From Tilletia caries (taxonomy: Eukaryota; Basidiomycota; Exobasidiomycetes; Tilletiales; Tilletiaceae), in assembly GCA_032718865.1 (NCBI GenBank), contig JALUTQ010000046.1, positions 248,001-312,000 of the forward strand: a stretch of 64,000 nucleotides of DNA. The letters are read 5' to 3'. Positions 29,733 to 47,608 of the stretch are shown piece after piece; position 1 is the stretch's first letter; each line of letters begins with the position of its first letter. The position numbers and the translations under genes are program-made. Below the pieces are notes generated by a model, which saw only the letters and a list, made by a program, of their open reading frames with translations, was not told the origin of the DNA and searched no databases.

Positions 29733-30431
29733 ATTCCCCTAACTTTAGTTAAGGGGTTATAGGGCGGCTCCCGCCTTACGGCCGTAAGCTTTTTGCCATT
29801 CAGGCTCGTAGTTTGGGACTTTTCTTCGCAACTACCAACACAACACACCATTCTGAATCAGTAGACCCTTGACCAAATCTAGTCCTGCAACTTCTGGCAC
29901 AGGTTTCGTGGTTGTAGCATCAGAATTGACTGATCTGTCCTTGAGCCAAAGTTTGGTTTTTCCTTACATAAGCACAGAGTGCAGAAATCTTGCATACGTA
30001 ATCAGTTCATTTCGACACTCGACAGACGACAACCAACACCGCCAGCCTTTCTTCACGCTTCCATCGAAGCCCGACAAGCATCATGCGAATTGAACAATCC
30101 CCCCTCGATTTCTTTTTTTAACCGCTCTCTGCTCACCAAGGTTCAAGTTAATGATGCTCACCGCTGTTTTTGCTTTTTCTTGCTTAACCTGATGGCTGAT
30201 ACCACTTACCCATACCAGTCTCTGCTTTGTTCCCATTCTGAGTCCGGCCCAGGCCCCAGCAGTCAGCACTCCCGAATTGTCATCCAAGGTGAGCCTCGTG
30301 TTTATACGCGCATCTGCATCAGGTGCTCCGGGTTAGGTCCTTACTCACCCATTCGTTTTTCAGCTCTCTGCTCTTATGAATCCAGTCGACGTCGTCAAGA
30401 TGAGTAGACTGACTTTCCTCACTCACCATGC

Positions 30432-30840
30432 CCCATCGGACAGCTCTCTCCCTCGACAAAGCCGCTGCCAAGGTTGCTCCCAAAGCACACCACCTCGTCA
30501 TCTCCAACCCCGTCAACTCCACCGTGCCCATCGTCGCCGAGGTTTTCAAGTCTTTACGACCCCAAGCGGTGGGTTTTTCCCCGACCCCCTCTCCTTCTTC
30601 TAACGGCTCTGACGCTTCATGAGTTAAAATGGTGCTCATCACTGCATATCTTCGTACAGTCTGTTCTGTGTCACGGGTCACCACCTTTGACATCACACGC
30701 GCCTCCACCTTCCACTTCGACATTGCCAACGTCAAGCCCGCCGAGGTCAATGTGTCCGTCGTCGGTGGCCACCTTCGGCGTCACCATTGTGCTTCTCCTC
30801 TCTCAAGTCGCCCAGGGTTCCATACTCCAATAGTATGTTC
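30432..30840 (+). pseudogene. captured malate dehydrogenase fragment, left copy
   Basis: Plus-strand pieces read AAAKVAPKAHHLVISNP then VNSTVPIVAEVFK. After a frame change come YDPKR, an intron-like GTGGGT...TACAG, then TTFDITRASTFHFDIANVKP, AEVNVSVVGGH and, in another frame, VTIVLLLSQ. These are consecutive blocks of NAD-dependent malate dehydrogenase, including the ISNPVNS substrate/cofactor loop and the VVGGHSG active-site His region. At least two frame breaks and small insertions show it is a decayed fragment. Both enzyme ends are missing. Confidence 0.85.
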
Positions 30841-30841
30841 A

Positions 30842-30893
30842 ACACTGGACCTGACCTGACGGCTGACCTGACCTGACCTGACCTGATCTGACT
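30842..30893 (+). repeat. CTGAC pentamer array, left copy
   Basis: Tandem (A)CCTGA units with one GGCTGAC interruption. The matching array in the right unit (about 46450-46500) has one more unit. Confidence 0.85.
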
Positions 30894-31714
30894 TTCTTTC
30901 TGCTGTGCTCTTGCCTCTTCTATATTCCCTTACCTTCGCATCAAGCTCTGTTGGCATTCCTTTGCCCATTCGTCTCCGGTCTCAGCCTTCACCCGTCTTC
31001 TACGTCCCTTCCGTCTGCTTCCCCGGCCGCTTATGTTTCCTATCCCCTGACCTCTCCTTCTGCATTAACCTCACGCTTTTTTCTCCTCAGTCTTTTTAAT
31101 CTTATCTTCATTGCGCTCGCAGCTATTCTCCGTCTTGTTTGTCAATTGTCTCTCTCTGCGCGAAGCCATCATATGACATATCATTCTTTGCTTTCTGCTT
31201 CCTTGGTAGATACAGCCGTGCGGGATGATTACGTGTGTGAAGTTCCTCAATCCCTTTTTCACGCAAGTTTGATCAACATTCAAAATGTTACATGGACAAT
31301 GATATAGATGCTCGTAGCTACGATCGCAAGTCGCAGCCGCATGGCGAAGCAGACGAAGGGTAGCGAAGCTACCTTGAGCTTCTGCGTAGCCGTGCTGGGC
31401 TGAGATTTGGTGACCTTTCTGATACAAAAGATTCGCGAAAAGGGGAGGGGGAGAGGACGCCCCCAGTCACGTCTTCGCACATCTCTACCAGGTCATAAGG
31501 GTCTGAGGTCCACATCGAGTCTGAGGGACACCCTGGCCTTTGGGCTTCAGCCGACAGCCAGGTCACTATGGTTCCAAGGCGTAAGTTGCTGCTACTTAAC
31601 TTTGTTGACTAATTCTGTATTTAAATCCCACTCCCAGCCCCCAGCGACCTGTTGTTCAACAAGGCGAAAAAGTTAGGGGAACACTCTGGTAAGGTACGCA
31701 CCCAGGTCAGGAAT

Positions 31715-35680: not shown

Positions 35681-37205
35681 CTAGCGTTGCTGTCTCCACA
35701 CTCGCGCAAATTCCTGAACCTTTTGACGCAGTATCTGTCCCTCTGTGCGCCCCACTTGCTCCTCTTGCGGTGCAGACTGTCCTACGTCTGCACCCACAGC
35801 ATGCAACGCCGCATCGCCGTCGTGCTCCCAGCGAGTGAAGTCTGGGCCGTGCTCTCGCTGAGCGAGTTCGCGCTCCTCGGCCGTGAGCCATTGACCAGGT
35901 TCCGCCGCGTCGTCGACGAGAAGGTTGTGGAGAACCACGCACGCTCGAATCCAGCACGCTGCCCTCGACTCCTCGAGCTCGTCTCTGAGCGAGATTGGAA
36001 GGGCTCTCAGAGACTGCCAACGGAGTTTCAAGATGCCAAAGGCATGCTCGACCGTGACTCGGCGTGGTGATGCGTGTTGGTTGAAGGCAACCTGACGGTC
36101 AAATGAGGCACGCATCGGCGCAATGTGGGAATAATATAAATGAAATGAGATGAGCAAAGAGACGGCCACGGGCCAGCTAGGAACTGCAGGCTGCTCACCT
36201 GCGACGGCGCCAGTGTTTCCTGTCCACGGTACCGACGGAACAAAGACACCAAATGAGCATCGCTCGTGTATCCTGAGTCGCCCAAAATGAACTCGTTTGC
36301 AGAAAAATGCTGATCAGGCGCCTGAAAGAGGGCGCACGCTCTGTAAACACGCTGGTCATGAGCGGATCCCGGAAAGCCCAGATGGAGAAATCGGAAGCGC
36401 CTGTCGATGTCGACCACAGCCAGAACGTTGAACGAGTAGCGATGGTGTCGGGTGAAGAAATCAGCCGCATTTTTTTGCGGGCGGGCGCGCCCGCGAAATT
36501 GATGTGTGTTCCATCTATGAAGCCGATACAGCCAGCGAGTCCGTGGTGATCGCTGAGCTGCTGCCTCAACTGCTGACGCTCGCCGAGAGATGGCCACCAC
36601 ACATATCTGTCTTCGATACCGATCAACGCACAGAGAACGCGATCCGTCCAAGAGATGACCGTGCCCTCTGCGATGGAACATGACAAAGAGGGGTGTGTGG
36701 GGAGGACACCCGTCAGCAGCTGTATCATCGACGAGAGATATGAAATTAACACCGTTGCACTCTCACCAGAGACCCCAAAGCGCTCCGCGATTTGGAAGGC
36801 TGTGGCACCAGTGCCGGAATGAGCCAATCTCCATAGGACCAGAAGAACTTGATATTGCACTGGATGCTGAGGCCGACCGCGCGCCTTTCGTGCAAAGACT
36901 TCGTCCGTCTCCAGCAGACTGACTACGTACTCGAACTGGGCTTTTGTGACTCGGAATCCACGTTTAAAGTCGTCTTCATTCCAGGACAAGTGTTGCACGC
37001 AGCGCGCGCGAGTTCTGCGTGCGCGCATGTCGTTTGGCAGACGGTCTCGAGACAGGTATCGGTTGCTATCGACGAGTCCAAGAGCTCCTTCAGCTTCCTC
37101 GACGTCGGCCTGGAACTCCTCGTCGAGTGCGGCGGCAGATAGCGAGAGACGGAGGCACCTGGAAAGACTTTGAATCGAGCGCGCTCGTTCTGATAGGCGT
37201 GGCAT
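35681..37205 (-). pseudogene. Harbinger DDE nuclease with A7 frameshift
   Basis: Minus-strand HARBI1-like nuclease. Start MPRLSERARSIQSLSRCLRL; then FRVTKAQFEYVVSLLE and a helix-turn-helix-like FQIAERFGVSG. The catalytic domain shows GFIDGTHINFAGAP (first Asp), VLAVVDIDRRFRFLHLGFPG, ILGDSGYT (second Asp) and VEHAFGILKLRW (Glu). The frame changes within a run of seven A (plus-strand T7 at 36470-36476); one more A would continue the family sequence. An intron lies at 36198-36092, and one or two short introns probably lie near GVSG (about 36700). Inactive if the frameshift is real; homopolymer sequencing error is the alternative. Confidence 0.85.
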
Positions 37206-37405
37206 GAAGGGGACATAAATGAATGAAAAAAAAAACGAGGATTACAGGTGAGAGGTGACAGCAACGCGTGGAAAGCGCGACGCGTCAGCACGACATGCGC
37301 TCCGCGGCGAAGTCAGGAAACCGGAAGAGAACGGGGGGTTTCAATTTGGGTAACCGAAATGATGAAGTCAGGGGCCGGCTCAAAACAAAACTGAACACCC
37401 CTTTA

Positions 37406-37972
37406 CATCCAAGTTTCCAGGCTCCCACTGTCCAGTCTCCACCGCAGTAGTCCATTTGGACACGTACGCTGCAGCCCGCGGGCCATACACTGCCAATGGT
37501 CGGCCGCTCTGGGTCAAGCCTGTGGGGCCCAAATGGTCAGGACCTTATTAGTGAAAAGGCTTTGACAATACATGGAGAAGGGAGGTCCGCGAGACTTTTG
37601 AAAAATGGCCTTGAACAAGCCTTTGACAAATTTTCCTGGCACAGTCCCTCACTCCCTCAGGCAGATGCTTGTCGCAGGCTCACAGAAATCCTTGGAGGAG
37701 CCTCCGCCATAAGCCTGTTGAAAGACTTACCGGGCTACTAGAAAGGCTTGACCAAGCATTCCTCGACGGGTCGCCCTGCTTCTGGATCCCGCACCAGTAT
37801 GGCCCAAGCTCAAGTCGACGCGTGTGCGCGCATGGGCCTCTCCGCCTCGTACCTTTGCCCCTTTCGCCCCTCCACGGACCACTCCAACTCTCTTCTTCAC
37901 CACCACAGCATCCCACACATGACACACGGCTAACCACATCCTCAACTTCACAGCCCACAGTCCGCGTTATGT
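37406..37972. other. spacer between Harbinger and hAT elements
   Basis: 567 bp with no recognised gene. Several AAGGCTT/AAGCCTT motifs occur at 37555-37760. Confidence 0.5.
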
Positions 37973-37980
37973 CTTCCTTA
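37973..37980 (+). repeat. 8 bp target-site duplication of hAT element, left
   Basis: CTTCCTTA, identical to 44369-44376, directly before the left TIR. Confidence 0.93.
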
Positions 37981-37999
37981 CAGTGCTCGGCAAAAAAAG

Positions 38000-38245
38000 T
38001 CATATTTAAGAGTCATGTTTATGACATGACAGAATATGATCCTATTTATTCATATGACATGACCGGGTTTTGGCCGAAAAAAATGGCGGTCATATTTATA
38101 TGACATATGACTTAACATGACCGGAATATGACTAAATATGACCAAATATGACCAGTCTAATTTCACTCATATCCGACATGACCATATATGATCCTATATG
38201 ATCCTATATGATCATATATGACCTTTCAAATATGACCGGCACTAG
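38000..38245 (+). repeat. left subterminal TATGAC repeats of hAT
   Basis: More than ten copies of (CA)TATGAC, TATGATC or GACATGAC in both orientations, mirrored at 44160-44350. Probable transposase-binding array. Confidence 0.85.
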
Positions 38246-38324
38246 TTTTTAGGTTTAAAGTTGGCGGAGATGGACGGCAGCCGGGCTGCGGCCTGGGTTT
38301 AAAATCCCGGAATTGCTGAGGCTG

Positions 38325-40074
38325 ATGAGTGATGACCGCACCCCCTTTGAAACTGCTCATTGCCCGATCCCCAGCTCCTCCGCGCTGTCGAGATGGCCCC
38401 CCAACACGAGCAGCTGCAAACGACCAGCAACCATCACATCAGAGGATCACGTCAACATCAAGCGCGTTCGCAACGACAATACTGCAGGTCTCAATGGTGA
38501 GTTGGAACCCTCACTCCCCTGTTATCAATGCTGCCAACGTCGGTTTCAGCGTCGTTGACATCGTTCCTCACTCTATCCGCTTTGCTGTTCAGAAGCATCC
38601 ATCGATACTCAGGATGCAGCCTTCTCCCTGGCCGACACCGCACACTCGCAGCCATCTCCCACTTCCAGCTCAAGCTCCGCATCCACTGGATTGTCATGCT
38701 CAGGTCAGTTCACTCATCTGCATGTCATCTGTTACGGCATCTGTGCGAAGCGGTCCCTGACGACTTTCTTTCGTCCGTTCTTGACTCTTACAGACGGACG
38801 CCTGGAATCCAACGCTCCTCGCGGCAAATCAAGCATCGATACAGTCCACACAGAAGCCCCAGTGAACGACGGCTCGCTCCGCTCTTCCATTGTGGGTGAG
38901 TTTGAGCATTCCTTAGGTTACGATGGCGTTTCGGCGCGTTGAGCTAATCACGCCCACTGTCTCTTCCACAGATAACGCTCAGTCCCCAGAACAAGGACAG
39001 ATTGCTCGCCTCTCACTCTCACCATTTCGCCCGAGTGAGGCGCCGTCTCCTTCCGCCGCGCCGCACACACCTCAGTCTACCATCAAAGTCGAGCCGGTGG
39101 CAGCAGCGCGGCCTGAATGGATTGCTCCCGTTACTTGGCGTCCCGTTGGACGGTACATTCGCGTTCGGAACGTCCCGTTGCTCGGTCAAGGCTCGAACGG
39201 AGAAGTTGCTCGCGTCCTGGACGCTCTCGGGGGGTCGATGCGCGCGCGCAAACGCGTCAGCTTCCTCAACAGCCCGCCTCGTTCCCTGCTATTCGAGATC
39301 AAAGCACTCACGCGCTTGCAAGGCCACAAGGGGATCACGGAGCTGATCGACATCTGCTACACGACGCACAAGGTCGATCTCATCATGCCGATCTACTGGG
39401 GATGCCTCCAAGATCTGTTCGATCAGGCGGAGGGTCGCGGACTCGTCACTTCGCTGGCCAAGAATCTTACGCTCCAGCTCCTCGTCGCCGTCTCGTACAT
39501 CCATCGTCAGGGGCTCATCCACCTCGACATCACGCCGGGCAACCTGATGCTCACCAGGGATTGTGTCCTCAAAGTGGGCGACTTCGGTATCGCTGCCCTG
39601 GCTGGACACGATGAAGACACGCGAACCTTCGGCACGTTTGGTTATACCGCCCCTGAGTGCCTGCTCGGTTCGACAAAGCCCACCTGCCAGGCGGATGTTT
39701 GGTGGACTGGATGCGTGATTGCGCACCTCTTCCTGGATCGTCCCCTTTTCGCCGAGTCACACGACGCCGCCAGCTCAATCCAGGATATTCTCCACTTCAC
39801 TGGCCATCCGGGTGGGCCTGTCTTTCCTCGGGCCCGGTTCTCGCCGTCTGCCTTCGACTTGCCAATGGACTGGCCTCCGGTAGAATCACAAGCAACGAAC
39901 ATCCTCCAAGACGCGGACGGGGATGCAGCGGACGTTGTGGAGAAGATGCTCTGTCTTCAGCCAAACCGCCGGCCTCACCTGGCGACCTTCTTCACCCATT
40001 GTCTCTTCAGCAACAGCCCGCCCCCAAACAGGGTCAACCCCATGCTACCTCGCATCAATGCCTCCATCCAATGA
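38325..40074 (+). CDS. CDK-like protein kinase carried within the hAT element
   Basis: Exons 38325-38496, 38593-38703, 38794-38895 and 38972-40074 join in phase to 495 residues. The N-terminal 170 residues are Ser/Pro-rich with possible SP/TP phosphosites. The kinase domain (about 205-460) has a Gly loop GQGSNGEV, a candidate ATP lysine in RARKRVSF, and FEIKAL as helix C Glu. The catalytic loop reads IHLDITPGNLML, so HRD is HLD and the usual Lys two residues after the Asp is Thr. DFG is present (KVGDFGIAAL), then TFGYTAPECLLG and DVWWTGCVIAHLFLDRPLF, a layout closest to CDK/CMGC kinases. There are no stops or frameshifts, in contrast to the neighbouring transposase. It may be an acquired host kinase or a passenger that affects the transposase or host. 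Catalytic competence is uncertain. Confidence 0.85.
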
Positions 40075-40280
40075 GCGCGTCGGCGAGGAGCAGTATCAAA
40101 ATCTATGCGTCTTCCATCAATCTTGATCATTCAATCCATTTCTTTCACGAGTCCATCTGTCATCATAGACGCGCTCGCATCCAGTCTCAAAGCAATTCCA
40201 TCCAGGCTCAAAGCAATTCGATCTCGGCATTTCTTCTGAAAGTTAGCTGACTGCGTTTGAGGCTTCGTCTTGGTCCGGCC

Positions 40281-43200
40281 TTAGGAGCGGTTGCGGATGC
40301 GGTCGATGCGCTTGGGGGCATTCTTGTTTGGCTGGCTCTTCTTCCTCTTGGTGTCATCAGGGTTGGGAAGTCGCTCGTGGCTGTAAGCTACCTTCAAGGC
40401 CTGCTCCGATAGCCCAGCAAGCTCGTCGGCCCCAGTCAGCAGCCAGTGTCTGGTGGTCACGAGTCTGGAGATGCTGGCCGCCGACAGGCTGGCCCTTCGA
40501 TTGGTGCTGACGAGTGCCGCCTGGGAGAAGACGCGCTCGACGGCGGAAGAAGAGCCAGGGATCGCGAGGACGATGCGCGCAAGCTTTGCTATCGTTGGGA
40601 AGACAGCCTCATTGTCCCGCCACCACTTGTACGGCGTGCCGTCCGTTTCTCTCCACGGGCAGGTCTTCGGATCGAGGTATCGAGCGACTTCGTCTTCCTG
40701 AGAGCCATCGTCCTGTGATATGGCTGATTCCTCTGCCGCCTGCTCTCTGCGGGCGCGTGCTGCTGAACAGGGTGAGGGTTGGTCCGCGTTGGTAGCGGGA
40801 AGCTGGGACATTTGCAAGGCCGGAGACGAATCAGGGGACTTGATATCGATCAGCTCGTCCAAAAGCTCGCGCAATGCAGTCTCCGCCCTCAACCGGTAGG
40901 CTGGGTACGATATCTTGAAGAGCTTGCGGTTGTTTGGGTGTAACAGAGTGGCGGCAAGGACGACACGATTACGAAGGGCCATCTCCCTGTACTTGCGCAG
41001 CTTGACCTCCATCGCGTTCAAGAACTTGGCGATCTCCTTTTTGGTATCGTCGTCCAACTCCTTGTCCGACTCAGTCAAGCGGAGGTGCCGAGCGATGTCG
41101 TCCCGAAGGCTAGCATGGTGATCGAGAACCGCATAGAGCGTTCCTTCTGTCTTCTCCATCTTCTTCGTGACGGCCGCTGCTAGCTTGAGGATGGGCTCCA
41201 GAAGCACCAGTTGGCGCCACTGTGTTTCCGTGAGCAGATAGTCGCCCAGCACCTCGCCTCGACGACCAATATGCGCTCGACAATGAGCGTCGATGGCGGC
41301 CCGTATCTTGAGAGCGCTTTGGATCATGGCGAAGTGCGAGTTCCAGCGCGTCTGGTTGGGTTTGGACGGGAAAGGCGCGCTGGCGAGGTCGGGGTCTCGG
41401 TGATACTCTTTGGCCATCTGACGCCTGAAAGCCGCTCGCCGCTGACTGCTGCGATGAATCCAGGTCGTAAACGCCGCCAGCTTGCCTACACCATTGACTG
41501 GCTTGGAGATAGATGTTATAGCGCTCGAAGCTTCTCCGTTGGCATCCGGTCCCCCCCCCATCGTCGTCCGAGCCGATGTCCTCATCGTTGGGAGCCATGC
41601 CTGGCTCGTCGTCCTCGTCGTCCACATCTTCATCCAAAGGCGGAGCATCTTCGTCACCATCGTCACCCTCTTCCTCCGCATCGTCGCCAACCAGCTCTTT
41701 ATCATCGTCCTCATCGTCCGTCTCGTCCGAGTCCGACGCTGGCACCTCCTCGCCGTTCTCGTCCGTGATGGTAATGGCTGGCTTGGGCCGGATGTCCAAC
41801 ACCTTCTTCTGTGTCTTGGTCTTGGTCTTGATGCCGAACTTCGCAAAGCCGTCTCGTACCGCAAGATTGATGTGGTGACAGAGACAGAGAATCTTGTAGT
41901 CCGCGGGCGTCCATGAGCCTGAGTTGCGAAGGCTGGCCTTGGGGAAGGCGGAGTGGGAGTTCTTCATCATCTGGTGCACCGAGGGATCATTTTGATGAGC
42001 CTGAGGATCACGCCGCTGCATCTTCTCCTGCGCCAAGTCGTTCTCCATGAGTGTGAGCATGCGTGTGTTCGTCCCCGCCGAGTCACTAGTCACCGCACCG
42101 TACCACTTGTCGTCCAAGTTGAGCTTCTTGATAGTGCGCACAAGGTGTCCTGCAAATGTGGCGCCACTGTGCTGCTGCTGAACGACGTCGAACGAAAGGA
42201 GGCGTTCGTGGTATTGCCACTTGGCATCGACGTAGGAACCGATGATCCCCATGAAGGAATGCTGGAAGCCTTTGTTGGTCCATCCGTCGTGCTGAAGCGC
42301 CATGAGGGTGTCGATGCCTCGGACCTCCTTCAACAGGTTGGACGCCAGGTGGGCGTGGAGCTTCTTGAGGTCGCGTTGCACCGTTCGAGCACTTTTGAAT
42401 GATATTGTCGCTCGGTGGTCGAGAGAACGAATCATCTGCTTCATGGACGTGGAGCTCAGAAGGGTGAAGGGCAAAGCATTCCGGACAACGCATACCAGAG
42501 CAAGTCGTCGTGTAAGGTCTATGTCGACACCTTGATGCGCATTCAGCCACCCGCGAACACTTGCCCCACGGTACGACCCTCCAGGGAGCGTAGACGACGC
42601 TGCCATCCCCGACCGTTTCTCGGCTCCTTCTCCAGCTTCTTTGAGACGTGCGACGGCGTGCTCGTTCTTCGGACCCGAGCAGCTGCCGAGATGCGTCTTC
42701 AGGTTGGTCGGTTTGCCTTGCATCGAAGCAGTCTTGGGATCGCCGCACTTGAGGCACAGCCAGCTCTCCTTGATCTTGTTGCCCTTCTTGAATGTGCTCA
42801 AGTACTTGAAGCCCTCGTATCCTTCTGAGAGCGTCCAGCCGAACAAACTTGCCTTCGCCGCGCGCGAAAGAGGAAGGCCGTCCTCGAACATCGGAGCGCC
42901 CAGCTTGGCCTCCCGTGCTGCTTGAGATTCAGAGCCCTCGCCTTTGGAGAGCGTGAGAGCATTGGTTGTGGTTGTCGGTACCTGTGGGACGTCGCGGCTG
43001 GAGCTGAGGGCCTTGAGGCGTTGCGCTTTCATGATTGCGAGGATCGAAGGGCCTTCCTCTTCGTCCTCGTCCTCGAAGTTGGGGGAGGGGGATAACTCCA
43101 GGCGAGCCGAGGATGCTACTGACCGTTGCAGGGCCGGCGAGGCAAGTAGCGGGGGCTCCTGGGACTGGTCACGCACAGTAGAGCGTGTCACCATCGAGTC

Positions 43201-44100
43201 ATTGGGTCTGGGAGGGTTGGAGAGAGGCCTTCGCTTCTCGGCTGGAGACGTAGGCAGCACCTTTGCCTGAGCGAGGAGTTTCCGCTCCTCTGCTGTGCCA
43301 GCGGCGCCGCGCGCGACGATCGGATTCGCTCTGCCCTTCCCCTTCTTCTTGGGGGGAGCATCGGCAGGAGAAGGCGAAGTCGACCGCGGACGAACCCCGG
43401 AGGTCGAGCTGGATGAATTGTCGAAGCCGGCCGGACATGGCCGCAGCCGAGGGAAGATCCTGGTCGCCGTCTCCCATGACGTAACCCGACATTATCTTGG
43501 GCGCTGCCGGGCGGGATGACTTGCGCACCGGACTGGCTTCGCGTGAGGTCGACCGCGCGCGTTGGGGAACCTGGAGTTTCTGAGAAGGAACGACGACCGG
43601 CTTGAGGAGCTGTTGTTGGTTGGCTTGCTGGTTCGGCGCGGGAGGCAGCGGCGAAGACTGAGAGCCGCCGGTGGACTGGCTCTGCGAGAATTGCAGGTAT
43701 TCCTCGAACTGTGTAGACCTGCGAAGCTCGGCCAGTCGCTCTTGTGATGCGGGAAAGTTGAGAGAGAGCTGAGAAGGGAGAAAGTGACTGGGTAAGTGCG
43801 CTGCTGGCAAAGAGCGGAGGACAAAACACAACATACCGGCTTATCGAGCGCCTGACTCTCCGTGTCGGGTTCATTGAGAAGGTTGGCAATCCTCCGAAAA
43901 GCTGCGGTGTCCTCAGGAGAGAGATTGGGAATGTTGTCGATTGTTTCGCCAAAGTGGTGGATCTGGAAGCCGTCATCGAATTTGAAGCGAGCGATGGCGT
44001 CGACGGCCAGAAGCTCGGCCTCCATCGCCGCCCTGACGGCGCTGGGCTCTTGCGTGACGACGGACTCAGTCATTTGGACCGACGGTGATGGTGTGGTCAT
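40281..44100 (-). pseudogene. hAT transposase with two apparent frameshifts
   Basis: Minus-strand gene. Exon 1 is 44100-43837 (start MTTPSPSVQMTESV); exon 2 begins at 43768. A BED-like zinc finger is seen at WLCLKCGDP...LKTHLGSC. The RNase H-like core has QHDGWTNKGFQHSFMGI (first Asp) and VTSDSAGTNTRM (second Asp). After an acidic insertion come RWNSHFAMIQSALKIRAA and the C-terminal hAT dimerisation region (WWRDNEAVFPTIAKLARIVL, GSSSAVERVFSQAALV). The reading frame moves by one base near 43427-43434, and again in a nine-G run (plus-strand C9 at 41551-41559); eight G would restore frame there. Otherwise all domains are complete, so the copy is recently inactivated or carries homopolymer errors. 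An undetected intron could explain the first shift. Confidence 0.85.
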
Positions 44101-44159
44101 CGAGGAGGAACAGCGTGGACGAGACACAAAGGAGACCTATTAGATTTGGCCACGCAAGT

Positions 44160-44350
44160 TATTTTCAAAATGAAATATGACCAATATGACACAAAAAACT
44201 AATATTTTTAGGAGTCGAAAATTTGTGGTCATATAAGATCATATAGGATCATATATGACCAAGTCATAATATGAAACATGACTTTACGATTTTGGCGCGT
44301 AGTCATATATGACATGACATATGACTTGAGGTCCAAATATGACAGAATAT
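44160..44350 (-). repeat. right subterminal TATGAC repeats of hAT
   Basis: Dense GTCATA/TATGAC motifs mirroring 38000-38245 and ending beside the right TIR. Confidence 0.85.
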
Positions 44351-44368
44351 GACATGTGCCGAGCACTG

Positions 44369-44376
44369 CTTCCTTA
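44369..44376 (+). repeat. 8 bp target-site duplication of hAT element, right
   Basis: CTTCCTTA, identical to 37973-37980, directly after the right TIR. Confidence 0.93.
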
Positions 44377-45624
44377 CCCACCCCCTCTTATCCTCCTCAC
44401 TCCCTCACTGACCTCCAATCCACCGCACTATCAGCTCAAGGCTCACCGCTCACCAGCACGCGCCGTTCACTGTGAGTTGCGAGTCTCAGATCCTCATCTT
44501 TCCTCTCCAGCTTCCCAGTTTCTGTCGCCATCGCCCACCAGCATCAGCTTCACCCTCTCCGACGCGATGTGCTGTGCTGTGACATACGGTGAGCTTATTC
44601 CCTTTCCCTCCCTCAGTCTCCACAGCTCGCGTTTGCGACCTGGCGCATGACAGAGTTACTGACCTCACTCGATCTCACTCAATCTCACTCAATCTTATGG
44701 CCATCGCATCACAGCTCACTCTTCGTTCCTATCGTCTCCGCCCTCTGTGAGTACTTCGCCGACATCGTCATTCTCTCTCCCTTCTCATTCCCGTCCCATG
44801 CCCTTCCCACCCATGTCATCGGTACTGACAAGATAATATTTTTCCCTCTTGTCTGCCACTTACAGCGGATAGCCCACTACCAATGAGATGGACCTCGTAC
44901 GTGCTTGCTGCGATCCGAACCCAAATCTCTGCGGGTGACGACTGACATGCGACATCTCTAATCTTCCACAGGAGTCTGCGCGCAATAAAAAAAACTCCCG
45001 TTGTCGATCTCGCCGCCCGCGCCAGGCGGCGCGCATCAACGGTAGCAGTCGCCTTTGCTTGGTCTGCTTTCCCCCCTCGTCCACAGGTTTCCAGTTCTTA
45101 AGAGAAAGGCGCGAAAACCAAGCACTGAAGCCTCAAGCCTCAAACGTCTGTCGCCTTCAGGTTGCGTTACTGCTCGTTGTTGTCTTTTTCTTATACCAAC
45201 CAGAATCATACATCATTATGCCTTTTATCAACCCTTTGGCGAGTGATGTGCGTGACCTCATAGTAGGCATTGTCTGAGGCTTGGCGGGCAGCCTTCAGTG
45301 AGGCACATCGGTAACTCATGATGTATCCTGTCGGTGATCCTTGCCCAAGGCTTTGTGGCCATCCTTGTCCAAGGCTGGCAACCAACCCTTTGAAAAGCGT
45401 TTGAATATTCTCAGGAAGGCATTTTGTTGCATGTTTCTAGTATGGGATAAGGCTCAGCTAGCTTAGGTGGGGTGAGCCTTCTGTGAGCCTTAGCCCGGAT
45501 CCCTTCAAAGCATTTCGATTCATTGGCAGTGTACCTCCGCTAGGGCGATGGGTCGCCCTCATTAGTCATTGATCGACGTTTCACGCAGGCAGCGCCGTCA
45601 CTATACTGCTCGGGACAAATAATA
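44377..45624. other. gene-free stretch in transposon island
   Basis: Pyrimidine-rich open pieces without domains, and CAAGGCT repeats near 45340-45390. Nothing identifiable. Confidence 0.5.
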
Positions 45625-47608
45625 ATTCCTGACCTGGGTGCGTACCTTACCAGAGTGTTCCCCTAACTTTTTCGCCTTGTTGAATAACAGGTCGCTGGGG
45701 GCTGGGAGTGGGATTTAAATACAGACTTAGTCAACAAAGTTAAGTAGCAGCAACTTACGCCTTGGAACCATAGTGACCTGGCTGTCGGCTGAAGCCCAGA
45801 GGCCAGGGTGTCCCTCAGACTCGATGTGGACCTCAGACCCTTATGACCTGGTAGAGATGTGCGAAGACGTGACTGGGGGCGTCCTCTCCCCCTCCCCTTT
45901 TTCGCGAATCTTTTGTATCAGAAAGGTCACCAAATCTCAGCCCAGCACGGCTACGCAGAAGCTCAAGGTAGCTTCGCTACCCTTCGTCTGCTTCGCCATG
46001 CGGCTGCGACTTGCGATCGTAGCTACGAGCATCTATATCATTGTCCATGTAACATTTTTGAATGTTGATCAAACTTGCGTGAAAAAGGGATTGAGGAACT
46101 TCACACACGTAATCATCCCGCACGGCTGTATCTACCAAGGAAGCAGAAAGCAAAGAATGATATGTCATATGATGGCTTCGCGCAGAGAGAGACAATTGAC
46201 AAACAAGACGGAGAATAGCTGCGAGCGCAATGAAGATAAGATTAAAAAGACTGAGGAGAAAAAAGCGTGAGGTTAATGCAGAAGGAGAGGTCAGGGGATA
46301 GGAAACATAAGCGGCCGGGGAAGCAGACGGAAGGGACGTAGAAGACGGGTGAAGGCTGAGACCGGAGACGAATGGGCAAAGGAATGCCAACAGAGCTTGA
46401 TGCGAAGGTAAGGGAATATAGAAGAGGCAAGAGCACAGCAGAAAGAAAGTCAGATCAGGTCAGGTCAGGTCAGGTCAGCCGTCAGGTCAGGTCAGGTCCA
46501 GTGTTGAACATACTATTGGAGTATGGAACCCTGGGCGACTTGAGAGAGGAGAAGCACAATGGTGACGCCGAAGGTGGCCACCGACGACGGACACATTGAC
46601 CTCGGCGGGCTTGACGTTGGCAATGTCGAAGTGGAAGGTGGAGGCGCGTGTGATGTCAAAGGTGGTGACCCGTGACACAGAACAGACTGTACGAAGATAT
46701 GCAGTGATGAGCACCATTTTTAACTCATGAAGCGTCAGAGCCGTTAGAAGAAGGAGAGGGGGGGTCGGGGGGAAAACCCACCGCTTGGGGTCGTAAAGAC
46801 TTGAAAACCTCGGCGACGATGGGCACGGTGGAGTTGACGGGGTTGGAGATGACGAGGTGGTGTGCTTTGGGAGCAACCTTGGCAGCGGCTTTGTCGAGGG
46901 AGAGAGCTGTCCGATGGGGCATGGTGAGTGAGGAAAGTCAGTCTACTCATCTTGACGACGTCGACTGGATTCATAAGAGCAGAGAGCTGAAAAACGAATG
47001 GGTGAGTAAGGACCTAACCCGGAGCACCTGATGCAGATGCGCGTATAAACACGAGGCTCACCTTGGATGACAATTCGGGAGTGCTGACTGCTGGGCCGGA
47101 CTCAGAATGGGAACAAAGCAGAGACTTGTATGGGTAAGTGGTATCAGCCATCAGGTTAAGCAAGAAAAAGCAAAACAGCGGTGAGCATCATTAACTTGAA
47201 CCTTGGTGAGCAGAGAGCGGTTAAAAAGAAATCGAGGGGGGGATTGTTCAATTCGCATGATGCTTGTCGGGCTTCGATGGAAGCGTGAAGAAAGGCTGGC
47301 GGTGTTGGTTGTCGTCTGTCGAGTGTCGAAATGAACTGATTACGTATGCAAGATTTCTGCACTCTGTGCTTATGTAAGGAAAAACCAAACTTTGGCTCAA
47401 GGACAGATCAGTCAATTCTGATGCTACAACCACGAAACCTGTGCCAGAAGTTGCAGGACTAGATTTGGTCAAGGGTCTACTGATTCAGAATGGTGTGTTG
47501 TGTTGGTAGTTGCGAAGAAAAGTCCCAAACTACGAGCCTGAATGGCAAAAAGCTTACGGCCGTAAGGCGGGAGCCGCCCTATAACCCCTTAACTAAAGTT
47601 AGGGGAAT
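45625..47608 (-). repeat. 1.98 kb repeat unit, right copy (inverted)
   Basis: Reverse-complement twin of 29733-31714, of nearly equal length (1,984 versus 1,982 bp). GGGACAA occurs just outside both ends (about 45612-45618 and 47612-47618) and may be an insertion duplication, although 3-6 extra bases separate it from the shared sequence. With its twin it brackets 13.9 kb holding the Harbinger and hAT elements. Confidence 0.85.
46500..46910 (-). pseudogene. captured malate dehydrogenase fragment, right copy
   Basis: Same fragment as at 30432-30840, on the minus strand, with the same ISNPVNSTVPIVAEVFK and TTFDITRAST blocks and the same frame breaks. Both copies therefore descend from one already-decayed capture. 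Confidence 0.85.

Follow-up and report, generated by a model that had tools for sequence, protein, structure and literature searches.

The question raised by this locus is whether a protein kinase gene lying between the ends of a hAT transposon of the wheat-bunt fungus Tilletia caries is an accidental passenger or belongs to the element. hAT elements usually encode a transposase alone. The window, i.e. the whole stretch of 64,000 nucleotides analysed here, had been described in a sequence-only reading as holding a hAT element with a complete kinase gene as cargo, either a passenger or a regulator. We consider it probable that the window element belongs to a diverse two-gene hAT lineage of Tilletia, in which a CDK-like kinase encoded tail-to-tail with the transposase would act as a nuclear helper.

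Ends, insertion site and genes of the element

The element comprises 6388 bp (window positions 37981-44368) and is made up of the following features, with its target-site duplications (TSDs) and terminal inverted repeats (TIRs):

37973..37980, no strand: left TSD CTTCCTTA, 8/8 identical to the right copy
37981..37992, plus strand: left TIR CAGTGCTCGGCA, kinase side, 12/12 match to the right TIR
37981..38240, plus strand: left AT-rich subterminal region, 15 ATATGAC/T repeats in 260 bp (repeat count)
38393..38496, plus strand: kinase exon 1, start approximate, containing an NLS-like stretch; comparison with sister copies shows a changed start
38593..38703, plus strand: kinase exon 2 (matched to P0002)
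38794..38895, plus strand: kinase exon 3 (matched to P0002)
38972..40074, plus strand: kinase exon 4, entire kinase domain (open frame, Pfam and P0002 match)
40075..40280, no strand: gap between the kinase and transposase stop codons; the C35 chimera described below has its breakpoint between 40202 and 40345
40281..44101, minus strand: hAT transposase gene with an approximate 5' end; broken frame here, C-terminal part open in sister copies
44139..44368, minus strand: right AT-rich subterminal region, 11 ATATGAC/T repeats in 230 bp (repeat count)
44357..44368, minus strand: right TIR, transposase side, 12/12 match to the left TIR
44369..44376, no strand: right TSD CTTCCTTA, 8/8 identical to the left copy

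The two TIRs are the sole exact matches of their 12-mer in the window and, as first proposed, delimit the element together with the exact 8-bp TSD. Searches of the genome's contigs with the left (37681-37980) and right (44369-44668) flanks showed that both are part of a near-identical multi-copy repeat and that they match side by side without the element at 10 other places (on contigs C30, C28, C22, C23, C35 and C32, and twice each on C39 and C3), as read from match coordinates rather than letters. The flank matches overlap by exactly 8 bp at nine of these ten places; at the tenth (C3:1520879) the overlap is 6, because the left match ends 2 bases early. At one C3 place the left query is represented by its final 100 bases alone, and at C39:442906 the right query by its first 133. 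The ten places are the unoccupied (paralogous) form of the insertion site, which rules out a coincidental TIR/TSD arrangement.

Since its flanks recur at these ten places, the hAT element is nested in another multi-copy repeat. The nesting repeat contains a 348-aa open frame (36195-37241, minus strand) with no Pfam match above the cut-off and a weak helix-turn-helix match only. Two inverted copies of a repeat of ~2 kb (29733-31714 and 45625-47608) lie on either side of the hAT element and its flanks, consisting of eight matching pieces that are 87-100% complementary, six of them at 98-100%.

The ATATGAC/T motif is absent from the 5898 bp of the element interior, occurs eight times in the remaining 57.6 kb of the window, and also adjoins the TIR in sister copies; these subterminal repeats are candidate sites for what is probably transposase binding. 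The minus-strand gene ends in a hAT dimerisation domain (PF05699, E 2.3e-15), and its frame is interrupted, the breaks noted earlier being real. No Pfam match to a BED-type zinc finger was obtained in the three ORFs scanned, and a CxxC...H...C stretch is visible by eye. The short TIRs, the 8-bp TSD, the C-terminal dimerisation domain and the repeated subterminal motifs are those of the hAT superfamily, from which the lineage of the window element differs by its second conserved gene.

This second gene, on the plus strand and hence tail-to-tail with the transposase, has three introns (38497-38592, 38704-38793 and 38896-38971), all of GT-AG type and phased consistently with P0002, an annotated T. 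laevis protein, and its fourth exon encodes a Pfam Pkinase domain (PF00069, E 8.7e-38). The orientation and the four-exon structure in perfect phase were therefore read correctly. The same reading had taken the kinase to be undamaged, which is not true of its 5' end. In the copies on contigs C34 and C35, the frame of exon 1 is open from the usual start, whereas that of the window copy is altered; an in-frame ATG persists upstream.

Sister elements and kinase-hAT pairs in the genome

The genome searched comprised 40 contigs and 38.10 Mb, the published assembly being given as 46 contigs and 38.18 Mb (PMC10684912). Kinase relatives were found at four loci with 97-100% identity and at 16 further listed loci with 45-74%. 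hAT transposases adjoin all four of the former, and a transposase match lies beside 19 of these 20 loci, the exception being E_C33 on contig C33, which is read in two frames. Two sister elements have both ends and their own TSD at 8/8, i.e. those on C21 (6537 bp) and C27 (6463 bp); the C34 element (~6.4 kb) has both ends and a TSD of 7/8 adjoining a right TIR shorter by 1 base, and the C15 element (13.3 kb) both ends and a TSD of 7/8. Complete elements flanked by TSDs of their own thus occur elsewhere in the genome, meaning that kinase and transposase move together.

An intact kinase beside a broken transposase had been taken as a hint of separate selection or age. The C21 and C15 elements show the reverse, with stops in the kinase and an open transposase frame, while both frames are open in the C34 and C27 elements (the C34 transposase as an open frame of 1234 aa), and the kinase start of the window copy is itself altered; the hint is not supported. 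Stops are found in the kinases A_C21, B_C15 and C_C21a. Such stops argue against true cargo, in the sense of a kinase of use to the fungus that the transposon spreads, as does the fact that, among the 20 closest kinase relatives, E_C33 alone lacks a nearby transposase match. The CDK-like fold would suit such a benefit, but we regard it as very unlikely.

For the genome-wide comparison, 74 loci with a hAT dimerisation domain were obtained, all candidates being scored. The kinase listing comprised 150 of 154 matches, with 117 of 272 candidates scored; fragments were merged into 116 loci, and six relatives from the kinase homology search were added by hand. Seven of the 150 listed fragments are outside the 116-locus set, each lying at most 100 bp from a listed same-strand fragment with which it would merge. 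Near-identical copies were counted separately in all tallies, so the 74 hAT loci are not independent.

A kinase lies within 4.5 kb at 37 of the 74 hAT loci, and the nearest one is tail-to-tail at 34 of these (36 and 33, respectively, before the six relatives were added, C33:752396 adding one pair). Uniform random placement gave a mean of 2.83 paired hAT loci and a maximum of 10 in 1000 trials. The paired loci span about ten families, with identities to the window element down to ~27-30% for the transposase and ~25-28% for the kinase. At the other 37 hAT loci there is no kinase within this distance. The group of hAT loci scoring best against Dimer_Tnp_hAT is nearly kinase-free (1/20), whereas the remaining loci are rich in kinases (36/54), which makes the kinase a property of particular hAT branches. 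Element-linked kinases account for 38 of the 116 kinase loci detected, i.e. about a third, with 117 of the 272 candidates scored.

That a host kinase was captured once or by accident, and is now carried as a passenger, would be in keeping with hAT elements usually encoding only a transposase. Such an event would have been indicated by other copies lacking the kinase and by a window kinase matching a nearby host gene; instead, the four closest loci adjoin hAT transposases and the diverged relatives share the layout. Given a layout shared by 34 loci across a deep divergence, the distinct TSDs and the purifying selection described below, the chance of such a capture is negligible, and the genome-wide pairing led us to reject it. 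Of the two roles first suggested, that of accidental passenger falls, while a hAT element with a kinase inside its ends, probably serving the element, stands. Even the term cargo is too weak for a kinase that, in certain hAT branches, behaves like a second core gene.

Several further observations concern related copies. Two kinase genes are present at three hAT loci (L036 at C4:1627945-1631892, C22:1176631-1179321 and C40:618525-621338); they represent a hAT family with tandem kinases, and in the C4 copy, the one included in the tree, the second kinase sits in the other element-kinase clade. Kinases of family E are adjoined by a TIR variant, CAGTGCTCACCACAAAATGTCAT (C4:1042654, C5:2032743, C32:795842, C32:797586 and others), and the C32 pair, inverted and 1.8 kb apart, may be a short non-autonomous derivative. 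Exact TIR matches number 21 in the whole genome. Nine of them (L002, L007, L010, L011, L014, L015 and L017-L019) were taken as chance matches, having no ATATGAC/T in the next 250 bp. Isolated exact TIRs at C4:2229483, C28:805904 and C33:736995 are followed by sequence like the kinase-side end of the family and are likely remnants, those on C4 and C28 having an identical 8-bp flank. The TIR pair C34:1828826/1838211 was rejected as a 9.4-kb element with a weak kinase match, since the sequence on both sides of its two ends is the same in mirror image, as far as the comparison extended, and it looks like an inverted duplication.

In the published repeat table of the T. caries assembly, two hobo-Activator copies totalling 108 bp are given (PMC10684912), against the 74 hAT dimerisation-domain matches found here.

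Kinase class, constraint and exchange between lineages

The close protein relatives of the kinase come from Tilletia alone: among the best 120 of 148 matches, 17 Tilletia kinases are followed by a fall from E 6e-57 to 2e-12, and an alignment-based search placed 13 Tilletia kinases before 7e-33. Likewise, all six matches to the transposase protein are from Tilletia. The search for protein relatives depends on shared 5-residue words, and a wider spread is possible.

Judged by sequence and predicted fold, the element kinase is a CDK-like (CMGC-type) serine/threonine kinase. CDK2 and MAP kinases were among the best 60 matches in a sequence search of solved kinases, and the closest fold matches of the best AlphaFold model (mean pLDDT 77; 45-65 for the other four) were CDK5, CDK2 and Pho85, with which it shares the catalytic core. 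It differs from these three in being transposon-encoded, in having HLD for HRD, in lacking a PSTAIRE match (PPRSLLFE stands at this position in the alignment with solved kinases) and in its N-terminal tail, which is modelled at low confidence and contains the NLS-like stretch. A bipartite NLS-like pattern was found in 8 of 12 N-terminal tails, as against 0-7% of shuffles, and is missing in the other four.

Could the protein be a pseudokinase or scaffold, retained because it binds and not because it catalyses? All 22 element kinases (near-copies included) have another residue in place of the arginine of HRD (HLD, HCD, HFD or HGD), which is kept in six of six hand-picked other kinases. In the catalytic loop of family A (HLDITPGN), Thr takes the position of the usual Lys of HRDLKPxN, so the activity of this family may be reduced. 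Against this, K110, E125, D202, N207 and DFG220-222 are invariant in 13 aligned proteins, of which 12 are annotated in T. laevis, T. walkeri, T. indica, T. horrida, T. controversa and T. maclaganii (five shorter or partial proteins of the 17 Tilletia ones were left out), and kinases without the HRD arginine are often active. A purely non-catalytic role is therefore quite unlikely.

Of the 22 kinase and 21 transposase loci, 14 and 10, respectively, entered the codon comparisons. Between families, kinase dN/dS was 0.07-0.29 where computable, with dS near saturation, i.e. 0.07-0.09 for A-C (12 pairs), 0.09-0.10 for B-E (2 pairs) and 0.14-0.29 for more distant pairs, in many of which dS was too saturated to compute. 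Copies within family C gave 0.22-0.28 (3 pairs), and six family A pairs gave 0.20-0.99, with too few changes to judge. For the transposase, dN/dS was 0.08-0.09 for A-B (9 pairs), 0.08-0.10 in comparisons with E and up to 0.28 in distant pairs. In this one genome, the kinase is under purifying selection.

The phylogenies of the two genes are in conflict (group names were assigned after identities were known, and outgroup kinases were hand-picked). In the kinase tree, A groups with C (support 100/100) and B with E (95/99), while in the transposase tree A groups with B (94/97), E joins next (94/99) and C stands apart; the bootstrap of 94 for both transposase groupings is slightly below the starred level. 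AU tests rejected A+B (p 5e-66) and A+B+E (p 2e-5) for the kinase and A+C (p 1.2e-4) for the transposase.

A direct example is given by the copy on C35, in which the kinase-side end is truncated. Its kinase half is of family A (98% DNA identity) and its transposase half of family B (74% to the window element; five codon changes in 397 codons compared with the C27 copy), with the switch between window positions 40202 and 40345. Placing its kinase with B (4e-71) or its transposase with A (9e-6) was rejected by AU tests. The C35 copy is a recent recombinant, from which, together with the conflict between the trees, it follows that the kinase half has been exchanged between lineages; the convergent layout allows this half to be swapped as a block. 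In family F, the kinase is ~46% and the transposase ~27% identical to that of the window element, a pairing which suggests exchange across deep hAT branches. For all element kinases (tree without loci L028, L029 and L041), a single origin was not rejected (AU p 0.33), though not demonstrated either, in a tree with long branches and only two kinases labelled host, i.e. having no hAT C-terminus listed within 6 kb.

Role of the kinase and comparison with known systems

Mobility of the two genes as a unit, a shared layout in many diverged families, selection on the kinase, its conserved catalytic residues and exchange of the kinase half have been demonstrated in one genome, and the kinase-transposase linkage is likewise that of T. 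caries. Together these results suggest that such hAT elements use a signalling enzyme of their own. Under our proposal, the kinase would be active, its N-terminal bipartite signal would take it into the nucleus, and there it would phosphorylate a target, which in turn would raise transposition or set its timing.

A serious rival, if a somewhat doubtful one, is that the target is the element's own transposase, the kinase acting as a switch for its activity or its entry into the nucleus, or as a limit on its dose. The genes are neighbours at half of the hAT loci (37/74), sister families show similar constraint on both, and the NLS-like pattern in 8 of 12 kinase tails also speaks for it. However, the two trees conflict, and the unequal divergence in family F is hard to reconcile with two co-adapted proteins, unless the phosphosite is a generic one. 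Since related kinases adjoin transposases sharing only ~27% identity, a host protein, such as a cell-cycle, repair or silencing factor, would be a likelier target than a lineage-specific transposase site. It is tempting to speculate, and we propose it tentatively, that a mobile kinase module, possibly captured once or twice, serves as an exchangeable helper for many hAT lineages and favours transposition by resetting a nuclear pathway of the host, be it the timing of replication, the choice of repair route or silencing.

The closest precedents are the fungal transposons with TET/JBP genes and the IS3EU elements with an alpha-kinase (PMC12730594). In fungi, TET/JBP genes are described on DNA transposons belonging to 11 lineages, including hAT7; they are passed from one lineage to another, and their proposed role is to help the elements evade silencing (PMC12730594). 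By analogy, the element kinase, which has likewise been passed between lineages, might counter host silencing of the element, a reading we regard as rather unlikely. No TET/JBP domain was found in the window ORFs scanned with Pfam. The likeness lies in fungal DNA transposons carrying an accessory enzyme gene that is passed between lineages; unlike TET+ hAT7, the element described here has a kinase as its enzyme, a TSD of 8 rather than 7 bp, and a convergent arrangement, TET/JBP being upstream and in the same orientation in three hAT7 families (PMC12730594). TET+ IS3EU elements of rust fungi, also DNA transposons, have an alpha-kinase gene opposite to the transposase, an orientation stated for the TET+ IS3EU families (PMC12730594). 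They differ in superfamily, in their 6-bp TSD, in having the TET/JBP gene between kinase and transposase, and in kinase class, which is alpha-kinase by name there and ordinary eukaryotic protein kinase (PF00069) here (PMC12730594).

In the titles and abstract openings of the open-licence PMC literature, we found no report of an ordinary protein kinase on a hAT element. Accessory enzyme genes on fungal DNA transposons are thus already known, and what is added here is a hAT branch with an 8-bp TSD, a CMGC-type kinase, and the evidence for selection and exchange.

For the T. caries genome, and perhaps for related smuts, these elements mean that kinase counts are inflated by transposons missed in standard annotation. 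Cut-and-paste transposons are usually viewed as one-enzyme parasites, with the host supplying everything else. An active-looking and probably nuclear kinase of their own, selected and traded between lineages, would make signalling part of the transposition machinery or of host evasion, and offers a testable system for transposon control of host state.
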